Source: Halobacteriales archaeon QS_5_70_17 (lineage in GTDB: Archaea > Halobacteriota > Halobacteria > Halobacteriales > Haloarculaceae). From it: a DNA stretch of 33,322 nt. The position numbers and the translations under genes were made by a program. Positions within the stretch are counted from its first letter, which is position 1. Every line of letters begins with the position of its first letter. The notes beneath the pieces are model-generated. The model ran no database searches. It was not told the origin of the DNA and saw nothing but the letters and a program-made list of their open reading frames with translations. The stretch covers positions 1-33,322 of the forward strand of contig PXRR01000046.1 of NCBI GenBank assembly GCA_003021975.1, given 5' to 3'. Of this stretch, positions 13,581 to 32,160 are shown one piece after another.

Positions 13581-13698
13581 CCGACTGTCCCGGTGAGCGA
13601 CGATCGGCACCCGTAATCGGAGCGTCCGGCGGCCCCTCGTACACTATCTCGATCGCTGTGCACGCTGCTTCGATCAGCCGGCGAGCTTACACAATCCA

Positions 13699-13725
13699 CG
13701 AAATCCACACAATGTGAATTGCAGG
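13699..13725 (+). repeat. 27-bp AT-rich dyad element, copy 1 (upstream of parA)
   Basis: It starts CGAAATCCACA and contains the dyad AATCCACA-CAA-TGTGAATT (13702-13720), 7 of 8 positions complementary. The preceding bases give TCCACGAAATCCACA (13695-13709), matched 14 of 15 at 32130-32144 beyond sph. It lies about 155-180 bp upstream of parA. It may be a parS-like centromere site or an operator. Confidence 0.6.
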
Positions 13726-13812
13726 AACGACGAGCGTCTGACGTAGGCTTATGTGGGACGGTCGCCGTAGCGTGTCGCATGCAACGCGCGAAACGCCGAC
13801 AATCCGAACGAC

Positions 13813-13842
13813 CCGCGAAATCCACATTTCGCGGATTATTCG
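13813..13842 (+). repeat. 27-bp AT-rich dyad element, copy 2, with perfect 9-bp inverted repeat
   Basis: Positions 13816-13842 match the reverse complement of 31861-31887 at 22 of 27 bases. This copy also holds a perfect inverted repeat, CCGCGAAAT (13813-13821), spacer CCAC, ATTTCGCGG (13826-13834). It ends 36 bp before the parA start and overlaps its likely promoter (the ATTATTCGAAATA patch at 13835-13847). It is therefore well placed for autoregulation by a ParA partner protein. Confidence 0.65.
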
Positions 13843-13878
13843 AAATAGCCGGGCAGCGTAAACAATCCGCCGCTTGGG

Positions 13879-14748
13879 GTGAGCGCCGTGCCTGAGATGG
13901 AGCAACTGCCCGGCGCGACGGTGAACCTGCTAAAAGGCGGGGTCGGGAAGTCGACCATCGCGCTCAACGTCGCCGAGCGCCTCGCGAACCGCGGCCACGA
14001 CGTCGTGCTCGTCGACCTCGACGACGACGGCCACATGACGATGCAGCTGGGCTACCAGGACGCCTACGACCGCGAGGCCGACCTCGGCGGACCGCTGCTC
14101 GAGGAGTCCGATCCCGCCGACCTCCTCGTCGACACGGAGTTCGGCTTCGCCTTCCTTCCCTCGAACGACGACCTCGAGACCGTCGAGGACCGCTTAAAGA
14201 GCGCCCAGTGGTCGGACATCCGCTTCCGACAGAACGTCGTCGAGCCGCTGGTCGAGGACGGCTACGACTACGTGATCGTCGACGCGCCCGGCGGCCGGGG
14301 GAAGCTCTCGGACAACGCCCTGATCGCGCTCCAGCGGGTGATCGTCCCGCTGATCCCCGGCGCGGGATCGATCAACGGCCTCGGGACGACGATCAGCCGC
14401 CAGATCGTCCCCATCCGCGAGCAGATCGACCTCGACGTGCTCGCGATCACGCCCAACCGACTGACCGAGACGCTAAACCAGCGCAACGAGGACCGCGTTC
14501 TCGTCGAGCACATCAACCGGGAGTTCCCCGAGTACACGCCCGACTACGCGCGCATCCCCGAAGAGACGTTCGACGCGATGGACCGAAACGAGCTCCCCAG
14601 CGGCGAACTCCCCAAACCGGGGATCCGCAAGCGCGCGAGCATCTCCAAGGCGTTCAAGCGGGGCCAGCCGGTAGCGGCGTACGATCCCGACTGCGACCAG
14701 CTCCCGCACTTCGACCACCTCGCGGATCTCGTGGAGGAGGCGAGCTGA
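13879..14748 (+). CDS. ParA family (deviant Walker A) ATPase
   Basis: A 289-residue P-loop ATPase of the ParA/MinD/Soj superfamily, which drives positioning of DNA or protein cargo on the nucleoid or membrane. The deviant Walker A KGGVGKST is at 19-26, the A' motif is VLVDLDDDGH, and the Walker B is YVIVDAPGG. No C-terminal amphipathic MinD-type helix is evident, so DNA segregation or cargo positioning is likelier than MinD function. Possible starts are GTG 13879, GTG 13888 (best spaced after GGTGA at 13878-13882) and ATG 13897; the longest is given. It is followed 2 nt later by a small acidic protein gene in the manner of parA-parB operons, and preceded by palindromic repeats. No ParB-domain protein is present. 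Confidence 0.88.
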   Translation: MSAVPEMEQLPGATVNLLKGGVGKSTIALNVAERLANRGHDVVLVDLDDDGHMTMQLGYQDAYDREADLGGPLLEESDPADLLVDTEFGFAFLPSNDDLETVEDRLKSAQWSDIRFRQNVVEPLVEDGYDYVIVDAPGGRGKLSDNALIALQRVIVPLIPGAGSINGLGTTISRQIVPIREQIDLDVLAITPNRLTETLNQRNEDRVLVEHINREFPEYTPDYARIPEETFDAMDRNELPSGELPKPGIRKRASISKAFKRGQPVAAYDPDCDQLPHFDHLADLVEEAS

Positions 14749-14750
14749 CC

Positions 14751-15263
14751 ATGCCCGACGAGGACGAGCGGATCGGCGACATCGCGGCCCAGCTCGAACA
14801 GAGCGAGGACGGTCTCGGGGTCGACGACTCCGACGCGGACGACGGCCCCGGGGTCGACGGGACTGACGCCGGGGACGCCGCCGCCGACCCCGACCCTGAC
14901 TCCGAGGCCGCTGCCGGAGACGCGGCGAGCGACTCGTCCGCGTCCACCGACGGGGTCCGGGACCCCGGCCCGGAGATCCCGCCGTTTCCCTTCGAGGCGA
15001 CAGAGATGCACGGGTTCTACGTCCGCGACGGCACGTGGGACGACCTCCGGACGACGAAGTCGGCGGTCAGCGCGGCCTGCTCGACGTTCGGCGTCCCGGA
15101 GTTCACCGGCCGGGAGTTCCAGGACGCCTGCCTCCGGGTCGCGGCCGACCACGGCGAGGAGGTCGCCGCCGCGATCCTTGAGGGACGGTCCGTCGAGTTC
15201 GACGAGGAGCGCCTCGCGGAGATCGTCGGTATGCTCCGCGAGCAACGCGGAGAAGACGACTGA
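14751..15263 (+). CDS. acidic two-part protein, candidate ParA partner
   Basis: A 170-residue protein of unknown function. Residues 15-75 are low-complexity and rich in Asp, Ala, Gly and Ser, so probably disordered. Residues 85-165 look folded: a strand-like segment MHGFYVRDGTWDDL, then two or three helices (TTKSAVSAACSTFG; TGREFQDACLRVAADHGEEV; DEERLAEIVGMLREQ). The strand-helix-helix order recalls ribbon-helix-helix partners of plasmid ParAs, but I see no firm family signature. The start is 2 nt after the parA stop, so the pair is one operon. The gene ends 4 nt before the convergent DUF35 gene. By context it may bind the upstream dyads or link ParA to cargo; this is inference. Confidence 0.75.
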   Translation: MPDEDERIGDIAAQLEQSEDGLGVDDSDADDGPGVDGTDAGDAAADPDPDSEAAAGDAASDSSASTDGVRDPGPEIPPFPFEATEMHGFYVRDGTWDDLRTTKSAVSAACSTFGVPEFTGREFQDACLRVAADHGEEVAAAILEGRSVEFDEERLAEIVGMLREQRGEDD

Positions 15264-15267
15264 CCGA

Positions 15268-15693
15268 TCACTCGACGATTCGGGCGGCGAAGAACGGCCG
15301 GCCCGAGCGGTCCCTCCGGTCGTAGTCGGCGTCGTACTCGACGGCCGTCAGTTCGACGGTCGCGTCGAGGGACGGTGCCGCGTCCCCGGGAAGTCCCGCG
15401 AGCAGGCGCGGCCCCTCGACGAGTTCGACGACTCCGAGCGCCAACGGCGCCTCGAACCCCGGCGGGGCGACGTGCTGGCGGGTGAACGACACCAGCCGAC
15501 CCCGGCCGTCGGCCTCGACCCACGCGACGTCGGTCCGGCCACAGCGCGGACAGACCGGCGCGGGCGGGAAGAAGGTCTCCTCGCAGTCTCTACAGCGGTG
15601 CAGTAGGAACCGATCCGCCTCCAGCGCGTCCCAGAACGGATCGGTGTACTGCCCGGCCTCGGGGTCGGCCCGCCAGTCCCGGCCGGCGGTCAC
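15268..15693 (-). CDS. DUF35 (zinc-ribbon plus OB-fold) acyl-CoA-binding partner protein
   Basis: A 141-residue protein with a rubredoxin-like zinc ribbon (Cys34, 37, 48, 51 in CRDC and CPRCG), then an OB-fold domain starting about GRGRLVSFTRQHVAPPGFEA. DUF35 proteins act as CoA-binding partners of thiolase-like enzymes, for example in Ltp2-type aldolases and in archaeal thiolase/HMG-CoA synthase complexes. Its GTG start at 15693 overlaps the stop of the thiolase-like gene (GTGA, 15690-15693), implying coupled translation and a stable complex. Stop TGA is at 15268-15270. Confidence 0.9.
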   Translation of the reverse strand: MTAGRDWRADPEAGQYTDPFWDALEADRFLLHRCRDCEETFFPPAPVCPRCGRTDVAWVEADGRGRLVSFTRQHVAPPGFEAPLALGVVELVEGPRLLAGLPGDAAPSLDATVELTAVEYDADYDRRDRSGRPFFAARIVE

Positions 15694-16850
15694 GCCGACC
15701 CCCTCCGGAAGACGGCGGCGGTCGCGCCGTCGACGTGACCGTGTTCGGTCGTCGTCAGCGCCGTCCGTGCCCCGGGGACCTGCAGGGGCGCCGGCGCGGT
15801 CCCGCGCAACTGGCGGACGGCGGCGGCGTAGTTGAGCAGCGGCGTCACCATCGCCGGGTGGCCCCGGCCGAGACAGCCTCCCGACGGACTCACGGGGTGA
15901 GCGCCGTCCGTGGCCGTGGCGCCGCGCGCGCAGGCGGCCGCGCCAGCGCCGCGGTCGAACAGGCCGACCGCCTCGGTCAGGGCCGCCTCCACGTGGGGGA
16001 AGGGAGCGTACGGTTCCAGGAGGTCGAGGTCGGCGGCCGCGTCGATCCCCGCGTCGGTCAGCGCCGCGTCGACCGCGCCCTCGACGGCCGGCAGCGCGTA
16101 CAGCGGCCCGTCGCGCGGGCCGAGCAGGTGACTCGCGGCGTGGCGGCCGCCGACGCCGACGACGCTCACCGCCCCGTCGGGAGGGTCGCCGTCGGCGGCC
16201 AGTACGAGCGCCGCGGCGCCGTCGCAAGGGGCCGGACACTCGTACAGCCCCAGCGGTTCGGCGATCGGCCGGGCGTCGAGGACGCCCTCGACGGTCACGC
16301 TCTCCTCGAACAGCCCCCGCGGGTTGGCAGCGCCGTTGGCGCGGTTCTTGACGACGACCTCGGCCAGCGTCGATCGGTCGACGTCTCGGTCGTGACAGTA
16401 CCGCCTGGCGCTCGCGGCATAGACTGCCGGGATCGACGGCCCCGCCGGCGCCGCGAACTCGCGGTCGAAGAGCGAGAGGACGTACCCGAAGTAGTCGGCG
16501 GTCTCGACGGTCGAGGTCCGCTCGACGGCGAGCACGAGCGCTCGCTCGGCGCGTCCGGCCCGGAGATCCGCGACGGCGGTCCGGAAGGCGGTCCCGCCGC
16601 TCGTGCCGCCGGTGTAGACCTCGACGGTCCGGCGCGGGCGCGCGCCGAGCAGGTTCGTCAGGAGCGTCGAGAACAGGCCCTGTGCGGTCCACGGGCGCGG
16701 CTTCGGCATGTAGATCCCGTCGAGCGCCCCGGCGGGGCAGTCGGCGGCCTCCAGTGCGTCCAGCGCCACCCGGAGCGCGAGGTCGCGTTCGGGCGCGTCG
16801 TACTCCCCGTTCGGTAGCGTCGCGACGCCGGCGACATGCGGAGTCGGCAC
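15690..16850 (-). CDS. thiolase-like protein (SCP2/Ltp type) lacking the usual nucleophilic cysteine
   Basis: A 386-residue thiolase-fold protein. Family landmarks are VEVYTGGTSGGTAFR (76-90), CPAPCDGAAALVL (205-217) and the C-terminal SPSGGCLGRGHPAM with GHP at 330-332. In true thiolases the loop around residues 81-86 carries the acyl-accepting Cys; here it reads GGTSGG, so thiolytic chemistry is unlikely. Cysteine-less thiolases paired with DUF35 proteins include retro-aldolases acting on beta-hydroxyacyl-CoA, the best functional analogy. The GTG start at 16850 has a GGGTGA ribosome-binding sequence (16858-16863) 7 nt upstream. It overlaps the DUF35 gene. Substrate unknown. Confidence 0.85.
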   Translation of the reverse strand: MPTPHVAGVATLPNGEYDAPERDLALRVALDALEAADCPAGALDGIYMPKPRPWTAQGLFSTLLTNLLGARPRRTVEVYTGGTSGGTAFRTAVADLRAGRAERALVLAVERTSTVETADYFGYVLSLFDREFAAPAGPSIPAVYAASARRYCHDRDVDRSTLAEVVVKNRANGAANPRGLFEESVTVEGVLDARPIAEPLGLYECPAPCDGAAALVLAADGDPPDGAVSVVGVGGRHAASHLLGPRDGPLYALPAVEGAVDAALTDAGIDAAADLDLLEPYAPFPHVEAALTEAVGLFDRGAGAAACARGATATDGAHPVSPSGGCLGRGHPAMVTPLLNYAAAVRQLRGTAPAPLQVPGARTALTTTEHGHVDGATAAVFRRGSA

Positions 16851-16944
16851 GTGTCGGTCACCCGCTCGGACCTGCGCCCGCGGGGGCTTAACGGCTCCCC
16901 CGCGACGCGTAGAGTTTTGCCCCGCCGGGGCGAACGGCCGCCGA

Positions 16945-17452
16945 ATGGAGTTCGCTCCGCAGGACCGCGAGCGCTCGATGTACCGCACGCTCACCGGCAC
17001 CGTCATCCCCCGCCCGATCGGGTGGACCGCCACCACGAGTCCCGAGGGCGTCGACAACCTCGCGCCGTACTCGTTTTTCAACGTGGTGAGCGTCGCGCCG
17101 CCGATTCTCATGTTCGCGCCCGGCGTCCGGTCCGACGGCCTCACCGACACCGCCCGGAACGTCCGCGAGACGCGAGTTCGACCACGCGGGCCTCGAGCGC
17201 GCCGCGTCGTCGGTCGTCCGCCTGCCCCGAGTCGCGGGCGTCGCGGTCGCCTACGAGTGCGAACTCCACGACATGCAGCGGGTCGGGTCCCACCACGTCG
17301 TGATGGGCGAAGTCGTCCGCGCACACGTCGACGACGACCTGCTCACCGCGGAGGGGAAAGTCGACATCGAGCGCCTCGACGCCGTCGGTCGCCTCGCGGG
17401 GGACCTCTACGACACCGTCGAGAGCCGATTCCGGATGCCTCGCCCCGACTGA
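16945..17452 (+). pseudogene. flavin reductase-like (FMN-binding split barrel) gene, internally deleted and frameshifted
   Basis: The first part (16945-17172) encodes MEFAPQDRERSMYRTLTGTV through the conserved IPRPIGWTATTSPEGVDNLA and SFFNVVSVAPPILMF to TARNVRET, a flavin reductase-like FMN-binding domain. Coding then continues in another frame from about 17174 (EFDHAGLERAASSVVRLPRV through VGSHHVVMGEVVRAHVDDDL) to a TGA at 17450-17452. The two parts total about 168 residues, and the segment normally between the ARNV(R/L)ET block and the EFDHAGLE block is missing. A deletion therefore removed about 28 codons and shifted the frame. The junction sits at GCGAGTTCG, consistent with deletion between short direct repeats. 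The gene is divergent from the thiolase-like gene. Confidence 0.82.
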
Positions 17453-17686
17453 CCGAACAGCTCCGGATCGGGCCGACCGCACCCCCTGAACGTTCGTTAC
17501 TGGGAAACGAGATCGGAAGGGGTGGAGAATCGGATTTGCGAGAGGACGCTACGGCGCTCGATACTAGCGATTGCGAGCGGACGCGATCACCGCTCGATAT
17601 CCTGTTTCCTCTGTCGAAACGACCACGAGCCGACTGCCACCGGAAGTCGTGGGGTCGCGCGTAGTCGAGAGAGAGCGGCGACCGGT

Positions 17687-18493
17687 TCAGGAGAGGCGTT
17701 TCGCCACCCACTCCAGGTTCATCACGAGCGCGGCGACGGCGATGACGATCACCGACAGGAGGATGAGGAACGTCGAGACGACGCTCACGACGGGGTTCAG
17801 CGACTGCCGGAGCGTCCCCCACGCCAGCACGGGGATCGTGCGGGTGGCGTAGTTCGACAGGAACAGCGCCATGATGAACTCCTGGAGGCTGATGACGAAC
17901 GCCAGCAGCGCCGAGACGACGATCCCGTTGCGGACGCCGGGCAACGTGATGTGGTAGAACGTCCGCAGCGGCGAGGCCCCGAGGTCCATCCCGGCGTCGC
18001 GCAGTTCCCAGTCGAAGCGGCTGAACACGGACTGCATGACGAAGAAGACCAGCGGGGTCGCCCACAGCGTGTGCGCGAGGACGATGCCGAGATACGACGA
18101 CCTCAGTCCGATCTCGCTGAAGTAGACCAGCAGCGCCACGCCGAGGACGACCGGCGGGATCAGCAGCGGCAACAGCGCGACCGGAGCGAGATACCGGCCC
18201 CAGCCCCCGGACCGCCCCTGCAGGCCCAGCGCGGCGGTGACGCCGAGGAACGTCGACAGCAGCGTCGTCCCGATCCCGATGACGACGCTGTTGTCGAACG
18301 CCTGCAGCCAGTCGGCGTCGTCGAAGAACTCGCCGTACCAAGCCAGTGAGAACCCTTCCGGGGGGAAGGCGAGGTTCCCCGACGCCGAGAAGGAGGTCGC
18401 GACGACCACCACCAGCGGGAGGAACATGAACGCCAGTATCGAGAGGGCGCCAGCGTGGAACGCCGCGGTCTCGGCGGTCTCCCTACGCGCCAT
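17687..18493 (-). CDS. ABC transporter permease, PotC-like (polyamine-type importer)
   Basis: A 268-residue inner-membrane permease with six predicted helices. The EAA loop that docks on the ATPase is visible as DAGMDLGASPLRTFYHITLP. Similar to the second permease of spermidine/putrescine-type importers. Its ATG at 18493 overlaps the end of the upstream permease gene by 11 nt, so the two are translationally coupled. It is the last gene of the minus-strand importer operon; about 230 bp without a gene separate it from the flavin reductase remnant. Confidence 0.9.
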   Translation of the reverse strand: MARRETAETAAFHAGALSILAFMFLPLVVVVATSFSASGNLAFPPEGFSLAWYGEFFDDADWLQAFDNSVVIGIGTTLLSTFLGVTAALGLQGRSGGWGRYLAPVALLPLLIPPVVLGVALLVYFSEIGLRSSYLGIVLAHTLWATPLVFFVMQSVFSRFDWELRDAGMDLGASPLRTFYHITLPGVRNGIVVSALLAFVISLQEFIMALFLSNYATRTIPVLAWGTLRQSLNPVVSVVSTFLILLSVIVIAVAALVMNLEWVAKRLS

Positions 18494-19403
18494 ACTCCAC
18501 CTCCCCGCCCCAGCGGTTGAGCAGGTTGAACAGCGCCAGCGAACTGACGAACATCAAGACGAGCATGATCACCGCGAAGGCCGTGCCGACGGACCAGTTG
18601 AAGTTCGAGAGCATCTGGCTCTCGACCTCGATGGCGAACGTGCGGTCGCTGCCGGCGCCCAGCAGGGCGGGCGCGGCGTAAGCCCCGACGCTCCAGGCGA
18701 ACGTGACCACCGTTCCGACGGCGATTCCGGGTATCGCCTGGGGGAGGACTACCTCGGCGAACGACCGCGGTCGGGAGGCCCCCAGGTCCCGGGCGGCCTC
18801 GACGACCGTCCAGTCCATCGTCGAGAGGACACTGTAGATCGCGAGGACGGCGTACGGGAGGACGATGTACACCTCACCGAGGACGACCCCCGGCGTGTTC
18901 GGCGCGAACTGGACCGGGCTGCTCAGCACGTTCGCGGCCAGCAGGAGGTCGTTGACCGTCCCCGTCGGCGCCAGCAGGGGCAGCCACGCGTAGGTCTTGA
19001 TCACGAGCGTCGTCAGCAGCGGCAGGACGATCGAGAACAGTAACAGCGACTTGTAGAGCCCCGATGCCCGCCAAATGGCGTAGGCGTAGAACGTCCCCAG
19101 TGCGACGGTGATGACCGTCGAGATCACCCCGAGCTTGAACGAGTAGGCGATGACCCCGAGGAAGAACTCGGAGGTGAGGACGTCGACGTACGGCTGGATC
19201 GACCACGTCCCGGAGGCGTAGGCGCCGGCCGTCGACGGCTCCGCGAGGCTGATCCGCAGCAGGATGAGGAAGGGAGCGACGAAGAAGAGCAGTTCGTACG
19301 CGATCAGCGGGAAGAGCAACAGCAGCGACCGATCGACGCCGGCGTCGGTACCGAACGGGGCGGCCGCTCGGACGCGCCCCGCGAGCCCGTCGACCGCGCT
19401 CAT
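18483..19403 (-). CDS. ABC transporter permease, PotB-like (polyamine-type importer)
   Basis: A 306-residue permease with six membrane helices, the first at about residues 27-49. The EAA motif is EAARDLGASRPRSFAEVVLP. It forms the heterodimeric channel with the next gene product. Its ATG at 19403 overlaps the TGA of the ATPase gene (ATGA, 19400-19403). The order binding protein, ATPase, permease, permease is a complete importer of the spermidine/putrescine/2-aminoethylphosphonate class. The true ligand is uncertain. Confidence 0.9.
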   Translation of the reverse strand: MSAVDGLAGRVRAAAPFGTDAGVDRSLLLLFPLIAYELLFFVAPFLILLRISLAEPSTAGAYASGTWSIQPYVDVLTSEFFLGVIAYSFKLGVISTVITVALGTFYAYAIWRASGLYKSLLLFSIVLPLLTTLVIKTYAWLPLLAPTGTVNDLLLAANVLSSPVQFAPNTPGVVLGEVYIVLPYAVLAIYSVLSTMDWTVVEAARDLGASRPRSFAEVVLPQAIPGIAVGTVVTFAWSVGAYAAPALLGAGSDRTFAIEVESQMLSNFNWSVGTAFAVIMLVLMFVSSLALFNLLNRWGGEVEYGA

Positions 19404-20554
19404 GTGGTCTCACCCAGTCGCTCGCCGCCGGGCCGGAACGCCAGCAGGTCCTCGGTGGCCCAGGTGACGGCGACGTCGTCGCCGGTCGCGACGTCGCCGT
19501 GGTCGGTGACGCTCCGCTCGACGAAGATCGACGTCTCGCCGGCCGTCACGGAGTAGCGGACCTGCGACCCACGGTAGAGGACGCTGTCGACGGTGCCCGT
19601 GACGCCGGCGCCCGTCCCGTCGGGGCGGGCCGGAGCGGGGGATTCCGACCGCGTCCCGTCGGTTTCGACCCCGTCGGCGCCCTCCCGCCGCTGCAGCGTC
19701 AGCACTTCCGGGCGCAGCGACACCGTCACCGACGCCCCCTCCGAGAGGTCGCCCCCGACGGGGAGGTCCACCGGCGTCCCGAAGCCTAGGTCGGCGGTCG
19801 CGCGCTCGCCGTCGGTGCGGACGACCGTCCCGCTCACGAGGTTCGTGTCGCCGAGGAACTCCTCGACGAACTCGTTTTTCGGGCGCTCGTAGACCTCGCT
19901 GGGCTCGCCGACCTGCACGAGGCGGCCCGCGTTCATGATGCCGATGCGGTCGGCCAGCGTGAACGCCTCGTCCTGGTCGTGGGTGACGTGGACGAAGGTC
20001 TTCTCGAACTCCTCGTGGATCTGTTTCAGTTCGATCTCCATCTGCTCGCGGAGCCGCTTGTCGAGGTTCGACAGCGGTTCGTCGAGCAGAAGGACGTCGG
20101 GATCGACCACGAGCGACCGAGCGAGCGCGACGCGCTGCTTCTGCCCGCCGCTGAGGTCCATCGGGGCGTGGTCGCCGTACCCGGCCATCTCGACGCGCTC
20201 GAGCATCTCGTCGGCGCGGGCGGCCCGCTCGTCGGCGTCGACGCCCTGCATCTTCAGCCCGAAGGCGACGTTCTCCCGGACGGACTTGTAGGGGAACAGC
20301 GCCCAGCTCTGGAACACCATCGACGTGTTGCGCCGGTAGGCCGGCAGGTCGGTGACCTCGCGGTCGCCGATGTGGACCTCGCCGTCGGTCGGCGTCTCCA
20401 GTCCGCCGATCATGCGCATCGTCGTCGACTTCCCGCAGCCCGACGGTCCCAGCAGGCAGAGCAGCTCTCCGTCCCGGACCGACACGGAAACGTCGTCGAC
20501 GGCCACGAGGTCGCCGAATTCCTTTCTGAGGTTCCGCAGTTCGATTCCGCTCAT
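19400..20554 (-). CDS. ABC transporter ATPase, PotA-like
   Basis: A 384-residue ATP-binding subunit. Walker A GPSGCGKST is at 36-44, Q-loop Q82, signature LSGGQKQ at 134-140, Walker B VLLLDEP at 154-160 and the switch histidine H192. The C-terminal part (about 240-384) is a TOBE/OB regulatory domain interrupted by an acidic, Pro/Gly-rich linker around residues 305-330. It couples ATP hydrolysis to import by the two permeases encoded immediately downstream. Only 3 nt separate it from the upstream binding-protein gene. Confidence 0.93.
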   Translation of the reverse strand: MSGIELRNLRKEFGDLVAVDDVSVSVRDGELLCLLGPSGCGKSTTMRMIGGLETPTDGEVHIGDREVTDLPAYRRNTSMVFQSWALFPYKSVRENVAFGLKMQGVDADERAARADEMLERVEMAGYGDHAPMDLSGGQKQRVALARSLVVDPDVLLLDEPLSNLDKRLREQMEIELKQIHEEFEKTFVHVTHDQDEAFTLADRIGIMNAGRLVQVGEPSEVYERPKNEFVEEFLGDTNLVSGTVVRTDGERATADLGFGTPVDLPVGGDLSEGASVTVSLRPEVLTLQRREGADGVETDGTRSESPAPARPDGTGAGVTGTVDSVLYRGSQVRYSVTAGETSIFVERSVTDHGDVATGDDVAVTWATEDLLAFRPGGERLGETT

Positions 20555-20557
20555 GGT

Positions 20558-24876: not shown

Positions 24877-24890
24877 TTCGAACGTTCGAA
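24877..24890. promoter_or_regulatory. perfect 14-bp palindrome TTCGAACGTTCGAA
   Basis: Fully self-complementary, about 100 bp upstream of the second iclR gene and 20 bp before dyad B. It contains two overlapping TTCGAA units. It is a candidate operator, possibly for IclR autoregulation. Confidence 0.5.
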
Positions 24891-24909
24891 ACTCGCCATA
24901 CCAACATAA

Positions 24910-24929
24910 TTACAGACGTACCTTCGTAA
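24910..24929. promoter_or_regulatory. 20-bp dyad, copy B (TTAC-N4-GTAC-N4-GTAA)
   Basis: TTACAGACGTACCTTCGTAA, the same architecture as 5020-5039 and 29853-29872. Its centre is about 67 bp upstream of the leaderless start of the second iclR gene, upstream of the TATA, where archaeal activators or upstream repressors can act. Confidence 0.65.
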
Positions 24930-24986
24930 CGGAAATCGACGGGGAGTCCGTGTGTTTAAGTCGGCGCGGGCGTCGGTACGGTAGTA

Positions 24987-25790
24987 ATGACTGGAGAGCC
25001 CCACGAGGTCAAGACAACCAGGAAATCCCTCCGGGTGATCGAGGCGCTCCAGGAACTCGACGGCGGTCGGGTCACGGAGGTGGCGGACCACGTCGGGATG
25101 GCCAAGAGCACGGCCCACAAGCACCTGACGACCCTCGAGCGCTCGGGCTACCTCGACAAGGACGGAGACACCTACCACGTCGGCCTCCGGTTCCTCAACC
25201 TCGGCGAGTACGCCCGGAGCCGGTGGCCGGCCGCCGACCTCATCAAGGAGAGCATCTCGGAGCTCTCTCGGCGGACCGACGAGGAGATCGACTTCGTCGC
25301 CGAGGACCACGGCCGGGTGCTCACCGTCTTCGAGTCCTACCACAAGTGGGTGAAGTACGACCGCGGCGACCGCGAGGGGGACGGCACCCGGTACCGCGCC
25401 CAGATCGGCACCTACTACTACAGCCACGCGACCGCCTCCGGGAAGGCGATCCTGACGGAGTACTCCCGCGAGCGCGTCGAGCGGATCATCGACCAGTGGG
25501 GGCTCCCCCCGAAGACCGAGAACACGATCACCGACCGCGAGGCGCTGTTCGAGGAACTCGAGCGCATCGACCGGCGAGGGTACGCGATCGACGACGAGGA
25601 GTACACACACGGACTGCGTAGCGTCGGCAAGGCCGTCGCCGATCCCGCCGGCGACGTTCTCGGCGCTCTCAGTGTCTCCGGGCCAGCCTACCGGGTGAAC
25701 GGGTCGGTCCTCGACGAGGAGATCCCCCGGGCGCTCTCGGAGGTCGTCGCCGACCTGGAGGCCGATATCGACGCCGCCGGAGCGTACTGA
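24987..25790 (+). CDS. IclR family transcriptional regulator (copy 2)
   Basis: A 267-residue regulator. The winged HTH (about 10-70) includes GGRVTEVADHVGMAKSTAHK, and an IclR effector domain follows (about 85-260, with ATASGKAIL around 148-156). The ATG at 24987 is supported by TTTAAG 29 bp upstream. It is divergent from the alcohol/aldehyde dehydrogenase and importer genes and convergent with the MaoC operon, so it may control either. It is a close paralogue of the regulator at 5154-5939 in the DNA-binding helix, so overlapping operator specificity is plausible. Confidence 0.9.
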   Translation: MTGEPHEVKTTRKSLRVIEALQELDGGRVTEVADHVGMAKSTAHKHLTTLERSGYLDKDGDTYHVGLRFLNLGEYARSRWPAADLIKESISELSRRTDEEIDFVAEDHGRVLTVFESYHKWVKYDRGDREGDGTRYRAQIGTYYYSHATASGKAILTEYSRERVERIIDQWGLPPKTENTITDREALFEELERIDRRGYAIDDEEYTHGLRSVGKAVADPAGDVLGALSVSGPAYRVNGSVLDEEIPRALSEVVADLEADIDAAGAY

Positions 25791-25813
25791 CGCCTCCAGC
25801 CGGTCCGCGGACC

Positions 25814-26371
25814 CTACTCCCGATCCCCGGGCTGAGTGCCGACGCCCTCGGGCCAGCCGGGCGGCTGGGCGGCAGAGGGGTCGGCGTACTCGCGTTTCAG
25901 TACCATGGGCGTGCGTTGCAGCGAGAGGACCTTCTCGCCGTCTTGGTTGAACGCGCGGAGTTCGGTAGTGACGATGCCGACGTGGTCGCGGGACTCCGAC
26001 TCGCGTTTCTCGAGGACTTCGCTCTCGGCGAACATGGTGTCGCCGTGGAAGACCGGTGCGTGGTGGCGGACCTCGTCGTAGCCGAGGTTGGCCGTCGCGT
26101 TCACCGAGACGTCGATGACGCTCATCCCCACCGCCAGCGCGAAGACGTAGGTCCCGTCGACCAGTCGCTCGCCGAACTCCGTGTCAGCGGCGTACGCCTC
26201 GTTGAAGTGCATCGGGTTGAGGTTCATCGTCAGGTTCGTGAACCAGACGTTGTCCGTCTCGGTCACCGTCCGCCCGAAGGGGTGCTTGTAGACGTCCCCC
26301 ACCGTGAAGTCCTCGTAGTACCGCCCCTGCCAGCCGACCTGCAGGCGGCTGTCGTCCGTGTCCTCGGTCAT
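25814..26371 (-). CDS. MaoC family hydratase, mesaconyl-CoA hydratase-like
   Basis: A 185-residue hot-dog fold enoyl-CoA hydratase. Landmarks are GRYYEDFTVGDVYKHPFGRT (16-35), NLNPMHFNEAYA (50-61) and the strand GDTMFAESEVLEKRESES. In (R)-specific hydratases the active site is Asp-x4-His; here the first position is N50 and the His is H55. The long form and the TVTETDNVWFT block resemble haloarchaeal mesaconyl-CoA hydratases of the methylaspartate cycle, so a branched dicarboxyl-CoA substrate is possible. It is last in an operon with PrpD-like and acyl-CoA dehydrogenase genes (39-nt gap) and convergent with iclR. Confidence 0.88.
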   Translation of the reverse strand: MTEDTDDSRLQVGWQGRYYEDFTVGDVYKHPFGRTVTETDNVWFTNLTMNLNPMHFNEAYAADTEFGERLVDGTYVFALAVGMSVIDVSVNATANLGYDEVRHHAPVFHGDTMFAESEVLEKRESESRDHVGIVTTELRAFNQDGEKVLSLQRTPMVLKREYADPSAAQPPGWPEGVGTQPGDRE

Positions 26372-26410
26372 CGGCTGATCGGGCGGCGGGCTGGGCGGTA
26401 AAGGTTTCCC

Positions 26411-27754
26411 CTACAGGTCGGCGAGCGCGTCGGTCGCGCGCTCCCGCTCGCGGAGGCCGTCGAGTCCCGAGAGCGCCGCGTCGCCGTCGACGCCGGCCCG
26501 GTCTGCGCACATGCGGAACTTCTCGGCGAGCTCCGCGTCGCTCAGCGGATCCTCGGGGGTGCCCGGTGGCCGCTCTTGGGTGCGCTCGAAGACGCCGTCG
26601 GGGGTCTCGACTGCGACAGTCGTCCGGTAGGGGTCGTACGCCAGGTCGGAGTCGACCTCGAAGCGCACCCGCTCCCGGACCGCCTGCACGGCCGGGTCGT
26701 CGACGTTCGCGTCGTCGAACGCCGCTAGGCCGACGCGGTCGAGCGCGATCGCGCTCGCGACGCAGTACTCCATCGAAAACTTCGCCTCCAGTCCGGTGCC
26801 GGGATCGGCGTAGTGCAGCGCGTCGGCCGCCCCCCGGGAGGCGGTCACGCGGATCCCCTCGACGTCGTCCGGGGCGAGACCGTGCTCGGCGACCAGTCGC
26901 TGGGCGGCGTAGATCGCCGGGTGGGTGAAGTAACAGCAGGGGTACTTCTTGACCTGGAGGCCGTCGGCGCGCAGCGCCCACTCCTCGCCGAGGTCGGCCA
27001 TCGTGGCGCGGTCCGGCGGCTCCTCGCTCGAGTAGAGGTCGAGGAAGCCCCGATCGCCGCCGACGGCGCCCTCGGCCGCGGTGTGGCCGCGCTCGGCGAG
27101 CAGCGCCGCTGTGACTCCCGACCGGGCGGCCTGGCCCGCGTGCATGGGCTTGGTCATGCTCCCGAAGTTGCGCTTCAGCCCGGCGGGCGTCGACGCCGCC
27201 GCGTTCACGGCGTCGCGCGCCGCCCGCTCGTCGAGGTCCAGCAGGACCGCGCCGGCGACGGCGGCGCCGAACGCTCCGAGCGTCGCCGTGGCGTGCCAGC
27301 CCCGCTCGTAGTGCGCGGGGAGCAGCGCGTCCGCGAGGTAACACTGCGCCTCGTAGCCGGCGACGTAGGCCGCGATCGCGTCGGGCCCCGACAGGCCGCG
27401 GTCCTCGGCGACCGCGAGGACCGGCGCGACGATCGGGACGCTGGGGTGCCAGACGCCGCGGGTCACGTCGTCGAAGTCCAGCGCGTGGCCGGCGGTCGCG
27501 TTCGCGAACGCCGCGTCGGGCAGCGAGGCGCTCCCCTCGGCGCCGACCAGTCGCGCCGGGCCGTCCCCGCCGGCCGCGCGGGTCGTCTCGATCGCGACCG
27601 CGCCGGCCCCCTCGGCGGCGCCGGCGACCGTCACGCCGACGGTGTCGACGAACGCGCGCTCAGCGGCGCGGACGAGGTCCTCCGGCAGGTCGCGGTACGA
27701 GAGGTCGGCGGCGAACGCCGCCAGTTCCGCGTCCGGGCGTCGGGTATCTGTCAT
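26411..27754 (-). CDS. MmgE/PrpD family protein
   Basis: A 447-residue member of the family that includes 2-methylcitrate dehydratase and cis-aconitate decarboxylase. Recognisable parts are LDFDDVTRGVWHPSVPIVAP (helical domain), GSMTKPMHAGQAARSGV and KKYPCCYFTHPAI before the C-terminal lid domain. The ATG at 27754 has a GGAG ribosome-binding site 5 nt upstream; the frame continues far upstream but with Arg-rich, non-protein-like sequence. The operon order acyl-CoA dehydrogenase, this gene, MaoC suggests catabolism of a branched or unsaturated dicarboxylic acid such as methylcitrate, itaconate or mesaconate derivatives. The exact reaction is not predictable. Confidence 0.88.
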   Translation of the reverse strand: MTDTRRPDAELAAFAADLSYRDLPEDLVRAAERAFVDTVGVTVAGAAEGAGAVAIETTRAAGGDGPARLVGAEGSASLPDAAFANATAGHALDFDDVTRGVWHPSVPIVAPVLAVAEDRGLSGPDAIAAYVAGYEAQCYLADALLPAHYERGWHATATLGAFGAAVAGAVLLDLDERAARDAVNAAASTPAGLKRNFGSMTKPMHAGQAARSGVTAALLAERGHTAAEGAVGGDRGFLDLYSSEEPPDRATMADLGEEWALRADGLQVKKYPCCYFTHPAIYAAQRLVAEHGLAPDDVEGIRVTASRGAADALHYADPGTGLEAKFSMEYCVASAIALDRVGLAAFDDANVDDPAVQAVRERVRFEVDSDLAYDPYRTTVAVETPDGVFERTQERPPGTPEDPLSDAELAEKFRMCADRAGVDGDAALSGLDGLRERERATDALADL

Positions 27755-27828
27755 GCGAACTCCCTCCGCGCCCAGGCTAATAACTCCCGGGCCGCGGCGG
27801 CCGATCGCTCGCTCGCCGCCGACGCCGC

Positions 27829-29031
27829 CTAGTACGACCGCGGCAGCCCGAGCACCTTCTCGCCGACGTAGTTGAGGGCGAGCTGCTGGGTGATCGGGAC
27901 GAGTCGCGTCAGCCGCGCCTCCCGGAAGTAGCGCTCGACGTCGTACTCGACGGCGACGCCGAACCCGCCGTGGGTCTGGACGGCGGCGTCTGCGGCCTCG
28001 AAGGCGGCGTCGCTGGCGAGGAACTTCGCCATGTTGGCGTACGCGCCGAGGTCCGCGTCCCGGCCGTCCGCGCTGGCGTCCGCGCCGGCGTAGGTGAGCT
28101 GACGGGCGGCCTGCAGGCGGGCGAACGCCTCGGCGAGCGGGTGCTGGATCGCCTGGTTCGAGCCGATGGCGCGGCCGAATACCTCCCGGTCGTTCGCGTA
28201 GTCGACGCCGCGTTCGATGGCCAGCCGACCGAGGCCGAGACACTCCGCCGCGATCACCAGCCGCTCCTCGTTGAGGCCCTCGAGCACCTGGTAGAACCCC
28301 TCCCCCTCCTCGCCGATCAGCGCGTCAGCGGGCAGGCGGAGGTCGTCGAAGTACAGCTGGAAGGAGTGGACGAACTCGCTGACTGACTTCTCGATGGGGT
28401 CGAGTTCCAGCCCGCTGCCGATCGCCTCGTCGAGGTCGACGAGGAACATCGAGATGCCCCGCGTGGCCTTCTCGACCTCCGACTTGGGCGTGGTCCGCGC
28501 GACGAGGACCGCGTAGTCGGAGACGTCGACCCGCGAGATCCAGATCTTCTGGCCGTTGACGACCCATCCGTCGCCGTCGCGCTCGGCGGACGTCTCGATC
28601 GAGGTCGAGTCCGACCCCGCGTTCGGTTCCGTGAGACAGAACGCCTGGATCGAGGCCTCGCCGCGGGCCACTCGCGGCAGGAGGTCCTCCTTCATGGACT
28701 CGCTGCCGTACTTCACCAGGGGAACGGAGTTGTAGATGCCGCCGTGGACCGCCTGCGCGGCCGCGAACCCGCCGCCGCTGGCGGCGATCTCCTCCATCAT
28801 CACGACCGTCTCGCGGGTGTCCATCCCGGCCCCGCCGTACTCCTGAGGGACGAGCGCGCCCATCAGCCCCTCGTCGGCGAGCGTGTCGACGAACTCGTGG
28901 GGGTACTCCCCGGCGCGGGCGCGCTCGCGCCAGTACTCGTCGTCGAAGGCCGAACAGATCCCGCGGACGCTCTTGCGCACCAGCCGCTGGCTCTCGGTCA
29001 GATCGAGGCTCCCGTCGGTGAACCCGGCCAT
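27829..29031 (-). CDS. acyl-CoA dehydrogenase family protein
   Basis: A 400-residue FAD enzyme with the full ACAD layout: an N-terminal helical domain, the FAD/substrate strand motif FCLTEPNAGSD (131-141), QKIWIS (161-166), and the C-terminal helices with QTHGGFGVAVEYDVERYFREA (352-372). At the place where many members carry the catalytic Glu in an EGT motif, this one reads LVPIT (377-381), so the base must lie elsewhere or the chemistry differs. It ends LGLPRSY. The ATG at 29031 follows a GGAGGG ribosome-binding site by 2 nt. It is first in the operon with the PrpD-like and MaoC genes (74-nt gap). Confidence 0.9.
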   Translation of the reverse strand: MAGFTDGSLDLTESQRLVRKSVRGICSAFDDEYWRERARAGEYPHEFVDTLADEGLMGALVPQEYGGAGMDTRETVVMMEEIAASGGGFAAAQAVHGGIYNSVPLVKYGSESMKEDLLPRVARGEASIQAFCLTEPNAGSDSTSIETSAERDGDGWVVNGQKIWISRVDVSDYAVLVARTTPKSEVEKATRGISMFLVDLDEAIGSGLELDPIEKSVSEFVHSFQLYFDDLRLPADALIGEEGEGFYQVLEGLNEERLVIAAECLGLGRLAIERGVDYANDREVFGRAIGSNQAIQHPLAEAFARLQAARQLTYAGADASADGRDADLGAYANMAKFLASDAAFEAADAAVQTHGGFGVAVEYDVERYFREARLTRLVPITQQLALNYVGEKVLGLPRSY

Positions 29032-29161
29032 GTCCCTCCGTTCGAGAGCACCGACAAAAGGGTTGGCGACGGCCGGCACCGGTCCCCCAGGGGACGCCGA
29101 CGCGTCGCGTGCGACGAGGAGAAGCGACGGGAACGGTGGACTTCGAGACGTGAAATCCGGG

Positions 29162-29800
29162 CTACAGCTGGCACTCACAGCCGCCGGCCTCGAGCAGGTC
29201 GTCGATCCCGGTCTGCCGGCCGCACTCGTAACAGAGCACCTGCACGCCGACGAAGACGTCGTACTCGTCGAGCGCGATGGCGTCGACGCCCCGGAGGCGA
29301 TCGAGCGTGTCCTCCGAGACGGCCCGGGTCCGGTTCTGGAGCCGTCGGAGCTTCGTCATGCTCCGCTCAGGGTCGGGCCGGTCGCGCTCGTATTCGACCT
29401 CCCGGTACTTAGTGAGGTAGGTGTGGATCGCCTGGTGGGAGACGAAGTCCGACCGCAAGCCGTCGACGTCGACCCCGCCGCGTTCGAGGCGTGACTCAGC
29501 CTCGGTGCGTGCGCCCGCCGAGACGTCGTCATCGGAGAGGAGGCGGTAGAGGTTGTCCACTTCGCCGTCGAGCGCCCGCATCCCGGCGTCTTCCATCGCC
29601 GCCGTCAGCACCGCGCGGTTGAACACGTCTGCTAGTTCCCGGAGGCTCCGGGACTCGTCGCCGTCGGCGGTCCACTCCGTCTCGAGTCGCTTTCCCATCC
29701 CCTCCAGCCCGTACTCGTCGATGACGCGACCGACCTTCGTGTTCGACGGCCGGCGTCCCCCGTCCTCGCTCGGTTCCGGCCCGTTCGAGCGTTCGTTCAC
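29162..29800 (-). CDS. rdfA: rod-determining factor RdfA
   Basis: A 212-residue cytoplasmic protein of the haloarchaeal RdfA family, linked in Haloferax to rod-shape formation. The family core is VGRVIDEYGLEGMGKRLE, then SLRELADVFNRAVLTAAMED and GMRALDGEVDNLYRLLSDDD (73-92), FVSHQAIHTYLTKYR (119-133). A C-terminal zinc-finger-like group has Cys190, Cys193, Cys208 and Cys210. The GTG at 29800 fits a TATA-like CTTATACG on the minus strand (29824-29831), 27 bp upstream. It is divergent from sph, a pairing known in other haloarchaea, and shares a control region with it that holds dyad copy C. Confidence 0.85.
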   Translation of the reverse strand: MNERSNGPEPSEDGGRRPSNTKVGRVIDEYGLEGMGKRLETEWTADGDESRSLRELADVFNRAVLTAAMEDAGMRALDGEVDNLYRLLSDDDVSAGARTEAESRLERGGVDVDGLRSDFVSHQAIHTYLTKYREVEYERDRPDPERSMTKLRRLQNRTRAVSEDTLDRLRGVDAIALDEYDVFVGVQVLCYECGRQTGIDDLLEAGGCECQL

Positions 29801-29823
29801 GGCCTCGGTTATCGGTCGTCTCG

Positions 29824-29914
29824 TATAAGTGCTTGCGCCGCCGGGAAGTACTTTACAATCGTACAAGCGTAACGGCTTTGGGATTGTCGGGGAAAGACGG
29901 TGAACAATTATGTA
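29824..29914. promoter_or_regulatory. divergent rdfA/sph promoter region with dyad copy C
   Basis: The rdfA TATA (minus strand, CTTATACG, 29824-29831) and the sph TATA (ACAATTATG, 29904-29912) face away from each other, each 27-29 bp from its start codon. Between them is TTACAATCGTACAAGCGTAA (29853-29872), centred about 63 bp from the rdfA start and 75 bp from the sph start. One bound factor could therefore control both genes. Confidence 0.65.
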
Positions 29915-29936
29915 GGGCCGTCCGCAACGCCCTGAT

Positions 29937-31826
29937 ATGGCTTCGCCCACCGAGACGACCGGTGCCGCGCGTCTCGATGTCGACAACATCGGAGGGATCT
30001 CCTCGACGTCGGTCGCGTTCGAACGCGGCGTGACGGTCCTCGTCGGGCGGAACGCGACCAACCGCACCTCGCTGCTCCAGGCCCTGATGGCCGCGCTGGG
30101 CAGCGATCGGGTGGCGCTGAAAGGCGACGCCGACGAGGGGGGCGTCTCCCTGCGAATCGGCGATGAGACGTACGAGCGGCGGTTCGCCAGGCGAGAGACG
30201 GAGGTCGCCTCCGAGGGCGATCCGTACCTCGAGGACTCAGAGCTTGCCGACCTGTTCGCCTTCCTGCTCGAACCGAACGAGGCCCGGCGGGCGGTCGAGC
30301 GCGGCGACGACCTCTGGGAGCTCGTCATGCGACCGGTCGACACGGCGGCGATCAACGAGGAGATCGACGCGCTCGTCGAGCGCCGCCGAGAGATCGACGA
30401 CCGGCTGGAGGAGCTGTCGGCCCTGGAGGAGGACCACGAGTCCCTGGCGCGCCAGCGAGCGGAGCTCACCGAGCGAATCGAGACGACGGAGGCGGACCTG
30501 GAGTCCGCCTCGGCGGCCCTTGAGGCGGCCGAGGCGGACCTCGACGCCCGGCGGAGCGCCGACGGGGAACTGGACGCCAAGCTCGAGGAGCTCTCCGCGG
30601 CCCGGGGGGACCTCGAGGACGTCGAGCAGTCGCTGGCCGCCGAGCGCCGCAGCGTCGAGTCCCTCGAGGAGGAGCTGTCGGAGTTCCGGGCGTCGCTGGC
30701 CGACCTCCCGGAGTCGGACGGCGAGCGCGTCGAGGAGCTGACCGCCGAGATCGAGCGCCGCCGGGACCGCGCCTCGACTTACGACTCCCGGGTGAGCGAA
30801 CTCCAGACCGTGATCCAGTTCAACGAGGAGATGCTGGACGGCGAGGCGAATGTCGTCGGGACGCTCCGCGAGGACGGCGGCGACGGAGCCGTCACCGACC
30901 GGCTCGTCGACCGAGAGGAGTCGGTGGTCTGCTGGACCTGCGGATCCGACGTCTCGCGCGACGAGATCGAGGGGACGCTCGACCGCCTGCGGTCGCTCCG
31001 GGCGGAGGCGCTCTCGGAGCGCAACGACCTCCGGTCGGAGATCGACGAACTGACCGACCGGCGAGACGACCTGCGGGCGACGCTCCGTGAGCGCGAGCGG
31101 CTCCGAGAGCGCATCGAGGCCGCAGAGTCGGAGCTGGCCGACCGATTCGACCGGATCGACGACCTCGAGGCCGAGCGCGACGCCCTGCGGTCCCGCGTGG
31201 AGGGGCTCGAAGATGAGGTCGCGGAACGCCGGAACGACGACCAGAGCGAGGTCCTCGAGGTCCACCGCGAGGTCAACGAACTGGAGTTCGACCTCGATCG
31301 GCTCCGGGAGGAGCGCGCGGAGACCGACGAGCGGATCGCGGACGTGGAGGAGCGCCTGAGCCAGCGCGCCGACCTCGAGAGCGAGCGCGAGCGGCTGGCC
31401 GACCGGTTGGCGGACCTCCGGACGCGGATCGACCGGATCGAGGCGGGGGCCGTCGAGGAGTTCAACGACCACGTGGACGCCGTTCTCGAGATCCTCGGCT
31501 ACGAGAACCTCGAACGTATCTGGATCGAGCGCACGGACCGCGAGACCCGCGAGGGCCGACACACGGTCGAGCGAACCGTCTTCGACCTCCACGTGATTCG
31601 CACCTCGGACGACGGCACCGCCTACGAGGACACGGTCGATCACCTCAGCGAGTCCGAGCGGGAGGTGACGGGACTGGTGTTCGCGCTGGCCGGCTACCTC
31701 GTCCACGACGTCCACGAGACGGTCCCGTTCGTCCTCCTCGATTCCCTGGAGGCCATCGACTCCGAGCGCCTCCCCGAGGACGCACGGGCACTCGACGACG
31801 GCTACCACCGCGTCACCGACATCTGA
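29937..31826 (+). CDS. sph: archaea-specific SMC-like ATPase Sph, with shortened C-terminal ATPase lobe
   Basis: A 629-residue SMC/Rad50-like protein. The N-terminal ATPase lobe has the family's unusual Walker A GRNATNRTS (37-45). Two long coiled coils (about 137-300 and 345-515) surround a zinc-hook-like CWTC (Cys332, Cys335). The C-terminal lobe has the signature-like LSESEREVTGLVFALAGYL and Walker B/D-loop FVLLDSLEAID (598-608). It then jumps straight to LPEDARALDDGYHRVTDI. The helix and strand that normally lie between D-loop and H-loop (roughly 20 residues) are absent, with the frame intact. The ATG at 29937 is 29 bp from a TATA element. Likely role is chromosome organisation; ATPase activity may be impaired. 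Confidence 0.88.
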   Translation: MASPTETTGAARLDVDNIGGISSTSVAFERGVTVLVGRNATNRTSLLQALMAALGSDRVALKGDADEGGVSLRIGDETYERRFARRETEVASEGDPYLEDSELADLFAFLLEPNEARRAVERGDDLWELVMRPVDTAAINEEIDALVERRREIDDRLEELSALEEDHESLARQRAELTERIETTEADLESASAALEAAEADLDARRSADGELDAKLEELSAARGDLEDVEQSLAAERRSVESLEEELSEFRASLADLPESDGERVEELTAEIERRRDRASTYDSRVSELQTVIQFNEEMLDGEANVVGTLREDGGDGAVTDRLVDREESVVCWTCGSDVSRDEIEGTLDRLRSLRAEALSERNDLRSEIDELTDRRDDLRATLRERERLRERIEAAESELADRFDRIDDLEAERDALRSRVEGLEDEVAERRNDDQSEVLEVHREVNELEFDLDRLREERAETDERIADVEERLSQRADLESERERLADRLADLRTRIDRIEAGAVEEFNDHVDAVLEILGYENLERIWIERTDRETREGRHTVERTVFDLHVIRTSDDGTAYEDTVDHLSESEREVTGLVFALAGYLVHDVHETVPFVLLDSLEAIDSERLPEDARALDDGYHRVTDI

Positions 31827-31860
31827 CCCTCGAGACGCACGGTTCGAATTCCCCACAGCT

Positions 31861-31887
31861 CGGATAATCCACAAAATGTAGAATTCG
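31861..31887 (-). repeat. 27-bp AT-rich dyad element, copy 3 (downstream of sph, inverted)
   Basis: The reverse complement aligns without gaps to 13816-13842 upstream of parA at 22 of 27 positions, and shares the 8-3-8 dyad of copy 1, with TGTGGATT as the better half. It begins 35 bp after the sph stop codon. Confidence 0.65.
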
Positions 31888-31971
31888 AACACGATGATGA
31901 TTTCACATGATCTGCATTTTTCGCCGCCAATTACGGGATTTCGACCCGTGTCGAGACGCGCAACTTCGCGT

Positions 31972-32118
31972 ATGCAGTTCGAGCAAATCGCCGACCGCTC
32001 TCTGTCGCTCGGCCGGTGGCCCGCCTCCGATCGGACGATGCGCTCTCTGATATCGTTCGCGGAGCAGCGCTCGCTCTCCCCTGAACGATACTTCCCAGAA
32101 CTCGGAAGTAACGTCTGA
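31972..32118 (+). CDS. possible 48-residue small protein between the dyad elements
   Basis: MQFEQIADRSLSLGRW... to SNV, with fairly GC-rich third positions (roughly three quarters) but no ribosome-binding site and no clear TATA at the right distance. A longer reading from 31894 is open too. No family is recognised. It is kept only because it lies exactly between copies 3 and 4 of the 27-bp element. It may well be chance. Confidence 0.2.
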   Translation: MQFEQIADRSLSLGRWPASDRTMRSLISFAEQRSLSPERYFPELGSNV

Positions 32119-32129
32119 TATCTACGATT

Positions 32130-32160
32130 TCCACGAAATCTACATAGTATGGACAATTCG
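32130..32160 (+). repeat. 27-bp AT-rich dyad element, copy 4 (far side of the sph spacer)
   Basis: Positions 32134-32160 match copy 2 at 19 of 27 bases and copy 3 at 20 of 27. TCCACGAAATCTACA (32130-32144) matches 13695-13709 upstream of parA at 14 of 15. It is opposite in orientation to copy 3. The second half of the dyad is the weakest of the four. Confidence 0.5.

Follow-up and report, generated by a model that had tools for sequence, protein, structure and literature searches.

Background

Two plasmid partition systems, delta-omega of pSM19035 and ParF-ParG-parH (ParFGH) of TP228, are the closest described counterparts of the locus reported here; these and the other published studies cited are represented by excerpts of the papers. 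In pSM19035, arrays of 7-base-pair (bp) repeats overlap promoters, and at least 4 contiguous repeats are needed to activate ParA (PMC9499535). In TP228, tetramer boxes separated by AT-rich spacers are coated by the protein ParG, which also represses parFG (PMC7308502). A review of 2016 counts the form of centromeres on archaeal chromosomes and plasmids among the outstanding questions (PMC5120986). We analyzed 33,322 nucleotides of the haloarchaeon Halobacteriales archaeon QS_5_70_17 (contig PXRR01000046.1, positions 1 to 33,322; the whole stretch is called the window), which encode a ParA-type ATPase, a small protein directly after it (the partner) and five arrays of 9-bp units. Arrays with the same period recur upstream of parA in related haloarchaeal replicons. 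It is likely that these elements make up a megaplasmid-type haloarchaeal ParA partition system that acts like ParFGH and delta-omega, the partner-coated 9-bp arrays serving as centromere and parA operator. No description of 9-bp arrays at haloarchaeal parA was found in the excerpts of PMC5120986, PMC6471424, PMC10818511, PMC7617429 and PMC12284271; subscription papers and preprints lay outside the search, and the novelty of the arrays is provisional.

Arrays of 9-bp units in the window

A preliminary description of the window reported four copies of a 27-bp element built as an 8-3-8 dyad. All four are present, at 13699-13725, 13816-13842, 31861-31887 (inverted) and 32134-32160, and the reported identities of 22 of 27 positions between copy 2 and inverted copy 3 and 14 of 15 between copies 1 and 4 hold by eye. 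The pattern AATCYACA-N3-TGTGGATT, allowing up to 3 mismatches, has 7 strand-matches in the window, all at these four sites; 100 shuffles gave a mean of 0.02 matches and at most 1. The dyads are real, but isolated 27-bp dyads are ruled out, since the sites are fragments of longer, phased arrays with a 9-bp period. The two cores within a dyad are spaced 9 bp, TCCACGAAATCYACA consists of two direct 9-bp units, and the spacing from copy 1 to copy 2 is 117 bp, or 13 x 9.

Each unit comprises a 4-bp core (CCAC or CTAC, or the complement; class SYRS) and a 5-bp AT-rich spacer (ACAAT, GAAAT). Units of both orientations occur in a single register, which they can do because core and spacer are strand-symmetric as classes; for the same reason adjacent inverted units resemble an 8-3-8 dyad. 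In register, site 1 reads ACAATCCAC-GAAATCCAC-ACAATGTGA, and site 2 reads ACAATCCGA-ACGACCCGC-GAAATCCAC-ATTTCGCGG-ATTATTCGA and continues. Arrays were scored with a symmetric 9-column model trained on the sequence that precedes parA in three relatives (L038, L039 and L040; 450 bp each, except 253 bp for one), referred to as relatives-only, and with a window-trained version. The operon and the arrays are as follows.

parA, 13879-14748, + strand: Walker-type ParA ATPase of 289 residues (Pfam AAA_31, E 1.1e-25)
Partner gene, 14751-15263, + strand: protein of 170 residues, with an acidic N-terminal part and a conserved C-terminal domain at about residues 77-150
Array 1, 13654-13722: about 7-8 units, holding copy 1, in a register shared with array 2; score 29.8, relatives-only 29.2 (13688-13720)
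Array 2, 13770-13870: about 11 units, holding copy 2; window-trained score 54.8, relatives-only 29.9 (13783-13867)
Array 3, 31845-31896: about 6 units, between sph and the contig end, holding copy 3; score 28.3, relatives-only 26.6 (31842-31896)
Array 4, 32090-32163: about 8 units, holding copy 4; score 35.2, relatives-only 33.8 (32090-32157)
Array 5, 4871-4921: about 5-6 units, flanked by genes for an IclR-type regulator and a histidine kinase (Pfam); score 34.2, relatives-only 34.3 (4872-4921)

Array 5 was found by the relatives-trained model, for which it is the top-scoring array of the window (34.3), and it corrects the earlier statement that the window holds no further copy. Of the five arrays, which have about 5 to 11 units, one precedes parA by 9.0 kilobases (kb), two occupy positions -225 to -9 relative to parA (array 2 ending 8 bp before the start codon), and the remaining two follow the partner gene at distances of about 16.6 and 16.8 kb. 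By our gene reading they are intergenic, except that the first 29 bp of array 4 overlap the end of an open reading frame of 48 residues (31972-32118), for which we found no Pfam match, no recognised relatives and one plasmid match at chance level (E 0.6).

With the relatives-only model the five arrays score 26.6 to 34.3 and the next-best segment of the window 14.7. Local dinucleotide shuffles of the window reached at most 18.4 in 20 runs and 22.3 in 100 more, 3 of these 100 exceeding 20 and none 25. Versions of the model with a period of 8 or 10 (five each) gave 0 matches scoring at least 20. Among 60 permutations of the columns, one gave five such matches, one gave two and six gave one each, indicating that the exact columns count for less than the 9-bp period. 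For the window itself, the 400 bp before parA yield a weak autocorrelation signal, with a z of 1.5 at lag 9 and of 2.8 at lag 18, and a period scan without the model did not raise the window's arrays above shuffles. The window's arrays are detected through their match to the relatives' unit, not through periodicity alone. An Rfam search of the window returned no match.

The genome assembly has 2,606,427 bases in 78 contigs and is 73% complete. Throughout it, matches to AATCYACA-N3-TGTGGATT with up to 2 mismatches are confined to the window, and among the other contigs scanned for arrays (19 of 78, 930 kb) no segment reached 19, the highest scores being 18.3 (relatives-only model) and 18.9 (window-trained model). 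A transposable element or AT-rich mobile remnant, which had been offered as an alternative origin of the sites, finds no support in this distribution: the 27-bp pattern is window-only and arrays of at least 20 are not scattered over these 930 kb. With up to 3 mismatches the 27-bp pattern has matches in the window and in 0 of 58 relatives, because the unit sequence differs between plasmid types; a search with that pattern alone would have resembled non-conservation.

A 9-bp period upstream of parA in relatives

The period was measured as autocorrelation z in the 400 bp upstream of parA at 29 loci, namely the window, 15 relatives' loci and 13 named plasmids; three stretches were shorter and ended at the record end (196-253 bp). 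L085 (same plasmid as L040), L083-L084 and L151-L170 were left out of this count and of the grouped one below. Two loci returned by a separate plasmid-collection search of genome contigs were set aside as well. Mean z over the 29 loci is 4.88 at lag 9, 4.23 at lag 18 and 3.17 at lag 27, and from -0.84 to 0.46 at other lags; 23 loci have a lag-9 z of at least 3.0. The stretch 600-1000 bp after parA, taken as a control, has a mean z of 1.3 at lag 9 and similar values at other multiples of three, pointing to weak coding periodicity. When upstream stretches that align with one another were clustered into 18 non-redundant groups, mean z was 4.05, 3.87 and 2.85 at lags 9, 18 and 27 and -0.9 to 0.3 at other lags, with a lag-9 z of at least 3 in 11 of the 18. 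The top lag among lags 4-30 was 9, 18 or 27 in 15 of the 18 groups; the comparison of intergenic regions in relatives that the preliminary description had proposed thus reveals 9-bp-period arrays upstream of parA in most of them.

Named plasmids with the period include Halobacterium salinarum pNRC100 (z 5.2), Haloferax mediterranei pHME505 (z 6.0) and Natrialba magadii pNMAG02 (z 10.2). Stacked unit sequences vary from plasmid to plasmid and from clade to clade. Upstream of parA on a Halobaculum plasmid (NZ_CP126155, L098) there is no 9-bp period and the top lag is 8 (z 5.3); its repeat may possibly have a different length. ParA genes in viral contigs (53 of 80 loci tested) have a mean z of 1.17 at lag 9, and the period is no family trait among them, apart from L297 and L298. 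These two are IMG/VR contigs with a G+C of 0.38 and a distant ParA match, upstream of which the 9-bp period is strong (z 7.3).

Scans of whole replicons place the arrays of relatives near parA. Plasmid 2 of Halalkalicoccus jeotgali (NC_014299, 363,534 bp) has 6 segments scoring at least 17, five of them at 141974-143777 around parA and the remaining one, at 223507, weak (18.2). The 165-kb plasmid of Halorarius litoreus (NZ_CP101455, G015:C2), with parA at 254-1108, has 6 segments above 20, at 22-92, 142-226, 1613-1667, 155829-155862, 165200-165254 and 165287-165337; on the circular map all 6 are at parA or no more than 10 kb away, and four shuffles peak at 19.5. Of the six, the one at 155829-155862 is separated from parA by about 10 kb. 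In the H. litoreus chromosome, twenty stretches of 20 kb (400 kb) hold two segments of 18.1-18.2 and none higher. In two relatives the parA of this clade is carried on chromosome-sized contigs, G089:C1 (3.48 megabases, Mb) and G129:C1 (5.2 Mb), where arrays flank the operon on both sides within about 1 kb and one weak segment (18.5) lies 2 kb off.

The ParA protein and its partner

The P-loop of the window's ParA, KGGVGKST (a deviant Walker A motif), lies at about residue 19-26, a position that leaves no N-terminal helix-turn-helix DNA-binding domain ahead of it. The K-G-G..G-K residues are invariant across 15 aligned ParA proteins. Matches in the PDB are Soj/ParA-type proteins, and the match to the NCBIfam model ParA_partition is sub-threshold, at 50.8 bits against a cut-off of 180. 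Compared with plasmid records, the protein has 132 matches at E 1e-20, of which 17, from many genera, are 60-80% identical; 60 of 60 rows sampled evenly down the ranking are haloarchaea by name. Within the taxonomic family to which the window belongs, a ParA match at E 1e-80 is present in 22 of 146 genomes, the window's included, with no relative closer than 64-65%. The PLSDB matches H1-H17 form a clade of 17 plasmids from many genera whose ParA proteins are about equidistant from the window's (63.7-65.1%), which suggests a widely shared plasmid backbone.

The gene pair is conserved. All 14 named plasmid regions examined have, next to parA on its downstream side, a gene for a 'hypothetical protein' that overlaps parA by 1-8 bp (on pNRC100, VNG_RS12535); in 5 of the 14 an orc1/cdc6 initiator gene lies in the same stretch. 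Twenty-four partner sequences were aligned, and the C-terminal domain of 21 has an invariant Y, R-E and R. The N-terminal part is probably disordered. The partner is the presumed centromere-binding protein. Its relatives were absent from viral contigs in four scans.

Proposed partition system

What the sequences show directly is the arrays and where they lie, the presence of such arrays before parA in relatives, and the conserved gene pair. The periodic arrays upstream of the relatives' parA support the proposal, made in the preliminary description, that a ParA ATPase, a small partner and a common parS-type site in cis belong together. We propose that the partner binds the 9-bp arrays cooperatively and coats them. 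The array ending 8 bp before parA would serve both as operator, at which the partner would repress parA, and as centromere. The complex of partner and array would recruit and stimulate nucleoid-bound ParA, which would in turn move the copies of the replicon apart at division. The arrays are thus probably the DNA handles through which many haloarchaeal megaplasmids are distributed when the cell divides. That the partner binds DNA, that the operon is autoregulated and that the system performs partition is what we infer from this arrangement.

Several observations weigh against this proposal. The partner has no Pfam or NCBIfam match at E 10 or better, and its family has no consistent Pfam, PHROG or PDB-sequence match, the alignment of all 24 partners being too diverse to serve as a search query. 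When its C-terminal domain was compared by hhalign with seven haloarchaeal RHH_1 domains (7 of 12 loci used), the probability was 0.1. An AlphaFold model of one partner sequence (residues 70-170) as a monomer, in which strand pairing that forms only in a dimer would be invisible, has a pLDDT of 59, four helices, no strand and no PDB match. Among the 29 loci, the lag-9 signal is missing at L041 and L098 and is weak, with z below 3, at four more (the window, L045, L050 and L091). Unit sequence does not co-vary significantly with partner similarity (Mantel rho 0.14, p 0.095, 18 loci). Three of the five window arrays lie far from parA, unlike those of relatives, whose clustering at the parA operon makes the window's wide spread unusual. 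For the H. jeotgali and H. litoreus plasmids, the upstream arrays are in or near the training set of the model, so that only segments beyond the parA upstream region are independent.

A fold for the partner was also considered. The pattern Y-x-R-x-x-T, helix, helix is reminiscent, by eye alone, of a ribbon-helix-helix protein; a fold of this kind may apply, though neither the profile comparison nor the AlphaFold model supports it.

Alternative explanations

The arrays might be operators only, at which the partner or some other protein, as a cooperative repressor, controls parA and the genes on the sph and kinase sides, with no role as a centromere. Array 2 abuts the start of parA, the five arrays are intergenic by gene reading, and the repeats of omega and ParG double as operators according to the excerpts cited above. 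Set against this, the two arrays downstream of sph are followed by no evident promoter of a recognised gene, relatives carry arrays on both sides of the parA-partner operon, and arrays cluster at a plasmid ParA operon that lies beside a replication initiator in 5 of 14 regions. On balance we regard operators without a centromere role as unlikely. The 'shared operator' that the preliminary description listed as an alternative may, for its part, be compatible with a centromere role.

An extension of the partition proposal goes further. It holds that the locus represents a partition class of its own, found on haloarchaeal megaplasmids and, by way of integration, on some chromosomes, with a new family of centromere-binding proteins, perhaps of a fold new to partition, with plasmid identity set by an array sequence that varies between plasmid types, and, in the present genome, with arrays spread over 27 kb of chromosome, perhaps linking ParA with Sph. 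This we consider speculative, and somewhat less likely still than the operators-only explanation.

The arrays could also be iterons for the replication initiator Orc1/Cdc6, left over from an earlier plasmid origin. Iterons typically consist of short tandem repeats, and orc1/cdc6 lies near the parA-partner pair in 5 of 14 regions. Yet there is no orc1/cdc6 among the window genes examined, and orc1 is missing from the 2.5-3 kb around parA in 9 of the 14 regions, several of them still with strong arrays (pNRC100, z 5.2; pNMAG02, z 10.2). An iteron origin is accordingly very improbable.

The remaining alternative concerns two genes at the far end of the window.

rdfA, 29162-29800, - strand: rod-determining factor A, divergent from sph (Pfam PF21811, E 6.3e-77)
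sph, 29937-31826, + strand: archaea-specific SMC-related protein (NCBIfam NF045487, ASRP; 628 bits, cut-off 300)

That the arrays load or position the SMC-like Sph, as a ParB-parS-SMC analogue on an archaeal chromosome, is hardly credible: sph is followed within 340 bp by two of the five arrays, chromosomal genes are present on the contig and, in Sulfolobales, a SegB site lies inside the gene for the SMC-family protein ClsN (PMC12284271), but no array of at least 20 was found at 29 other sph loci, scanned for one unit type, and none near sph on the H. jeotgali plasmid. The best segment at those 29 relatives' loci (flanks of up to 1.5 kb, some shorter at contig ends) scores 18.9 (L015), in a scan that is strong only for the window's own unit type and would miss other unit sequences; a model-free period scan around sph is too weak to recover even the window's arrays. 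H. jeotgali plasmid 2 carries both parA and sph (49947-51761). The functional tie between the sites and Sph suggested in the preliminary description is not borne out by these loci, and sph probably stands outside the partition system. Sph and RdfA are a pair required for rod shape in Haloferax volcanii (PMC10869688).

Contig context

The window begins with a chromosomal landmark.

rps7, 251-868, + strand: ribosomal protein S7 (Pfam Ribosomal_S7, E 3.9e-39)

The gene is single-copy in each of 20 genomes. Ahead of it lies the apparent end of rps12, and a BioY-like gene (1331-2101) comes next; both were named by eye and not by family search. Among 11 relatives' loci, one has a 59% BioY match after rps7. 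Just after rps7, at 969-1082, are two tandem copies of a 57-bp sequence that are 82% identical. The CoA-transferase encoded before parA has its nearest same-genus relatives on the secondary contigs G001:C2, G003:C2 and G006:C3/C4. The chromosomal genes of positions 1-2101 (rps7, probably rps12, and the BioY-like gene) share a contig with catabolic genes that have secondary-contig relatives. The contig is either a chromosomal site with an integrated megaplasmid segment or a chimeric assembly join, and we take it as the former.

Significance and comparison with known partition systems

If the partition proposal is correct, candidate centromeres and a likely binding protein are defined in sequence for a family of haloarchaeal megaplasmids, among them pNRC100 and pHME505 of laboratory organisms, and are open to direct experiment. 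A family of proteins so far labelled 'hypothetical' would receive an annotation, and the proposal would point to a determinant of incompatibility among haloarchaeal megaplasmids. As a family trait of these megaplasmids, the arrays are of more interest than a link between ParA and Sph.

Bacterial parS has a 16-bp consensus, TGTTTCACGTGAAACA, and the window contains 0 matches to it within 3 mismatches. Among archaeal systems, SegAB of Sulfolobales is alike in having an archaeal ParA, a downstream archaea-specific partner that binds sites, and sites both upstream of the operon and elsewhere (PMC5120986, PMC12284271). SegB differs in binding single 13-bp palindromes, TCTAGA-S-TCTAGA, and the excerpts mention no periodic arrays for SegAB. 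When 3 mismatches are allowed, this palindrome matches the window once (at 6189), where chance would give 3.9 matches; a profile search of PDB chains with the partner gave no relevant match at E 10, no direct comparison with SegB being made. AspA-ParB-ParA of the Sulfolobus plasmid pNOB8 is likewise an archaeal plasmid partition system with a DNA-coating protein (PMC5120986), but it has three genes and a 23-bp palindrome from which AspA spreads, in place of the two genes and repeat arrays seen here.

The delta-omega system of pSM19035 resembles the present locus in having several arrays of contiguous short repeats, in both orientations, at promoters and spread over the replicon (PMC9499535). 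Its units are 7-bp WATCACW sequences, whereas those described here are sequence-variable and 9 bp long, and the partner has no detected homology to omega. ParF-ParG-parH of TP228, a type Ib system, shares with the haloarchaeal locus a short ParA, a small downstream partner, degenerate 4-bp boxes with AT-rich spacers and, by our proposal, a partner acting at the operator (PMC7308502). The haloarchaeal locus differs in that its partner has no detected similarity to ParG and is only a possible ribbon-helix-helix protein, and in that its replicons are archaeal. The period, too, is distinct, being 9 bp here and 8 bp in parH. Since the fold of the partner is conjectural, we liken the mode of action to those of ParFGH and delta-omega and do not claim membership. 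The features held in common with type Ib systems are a ParA without an N-terminal domain, a small downstream partner and an evenly spaced repeat array at the operon promoter.

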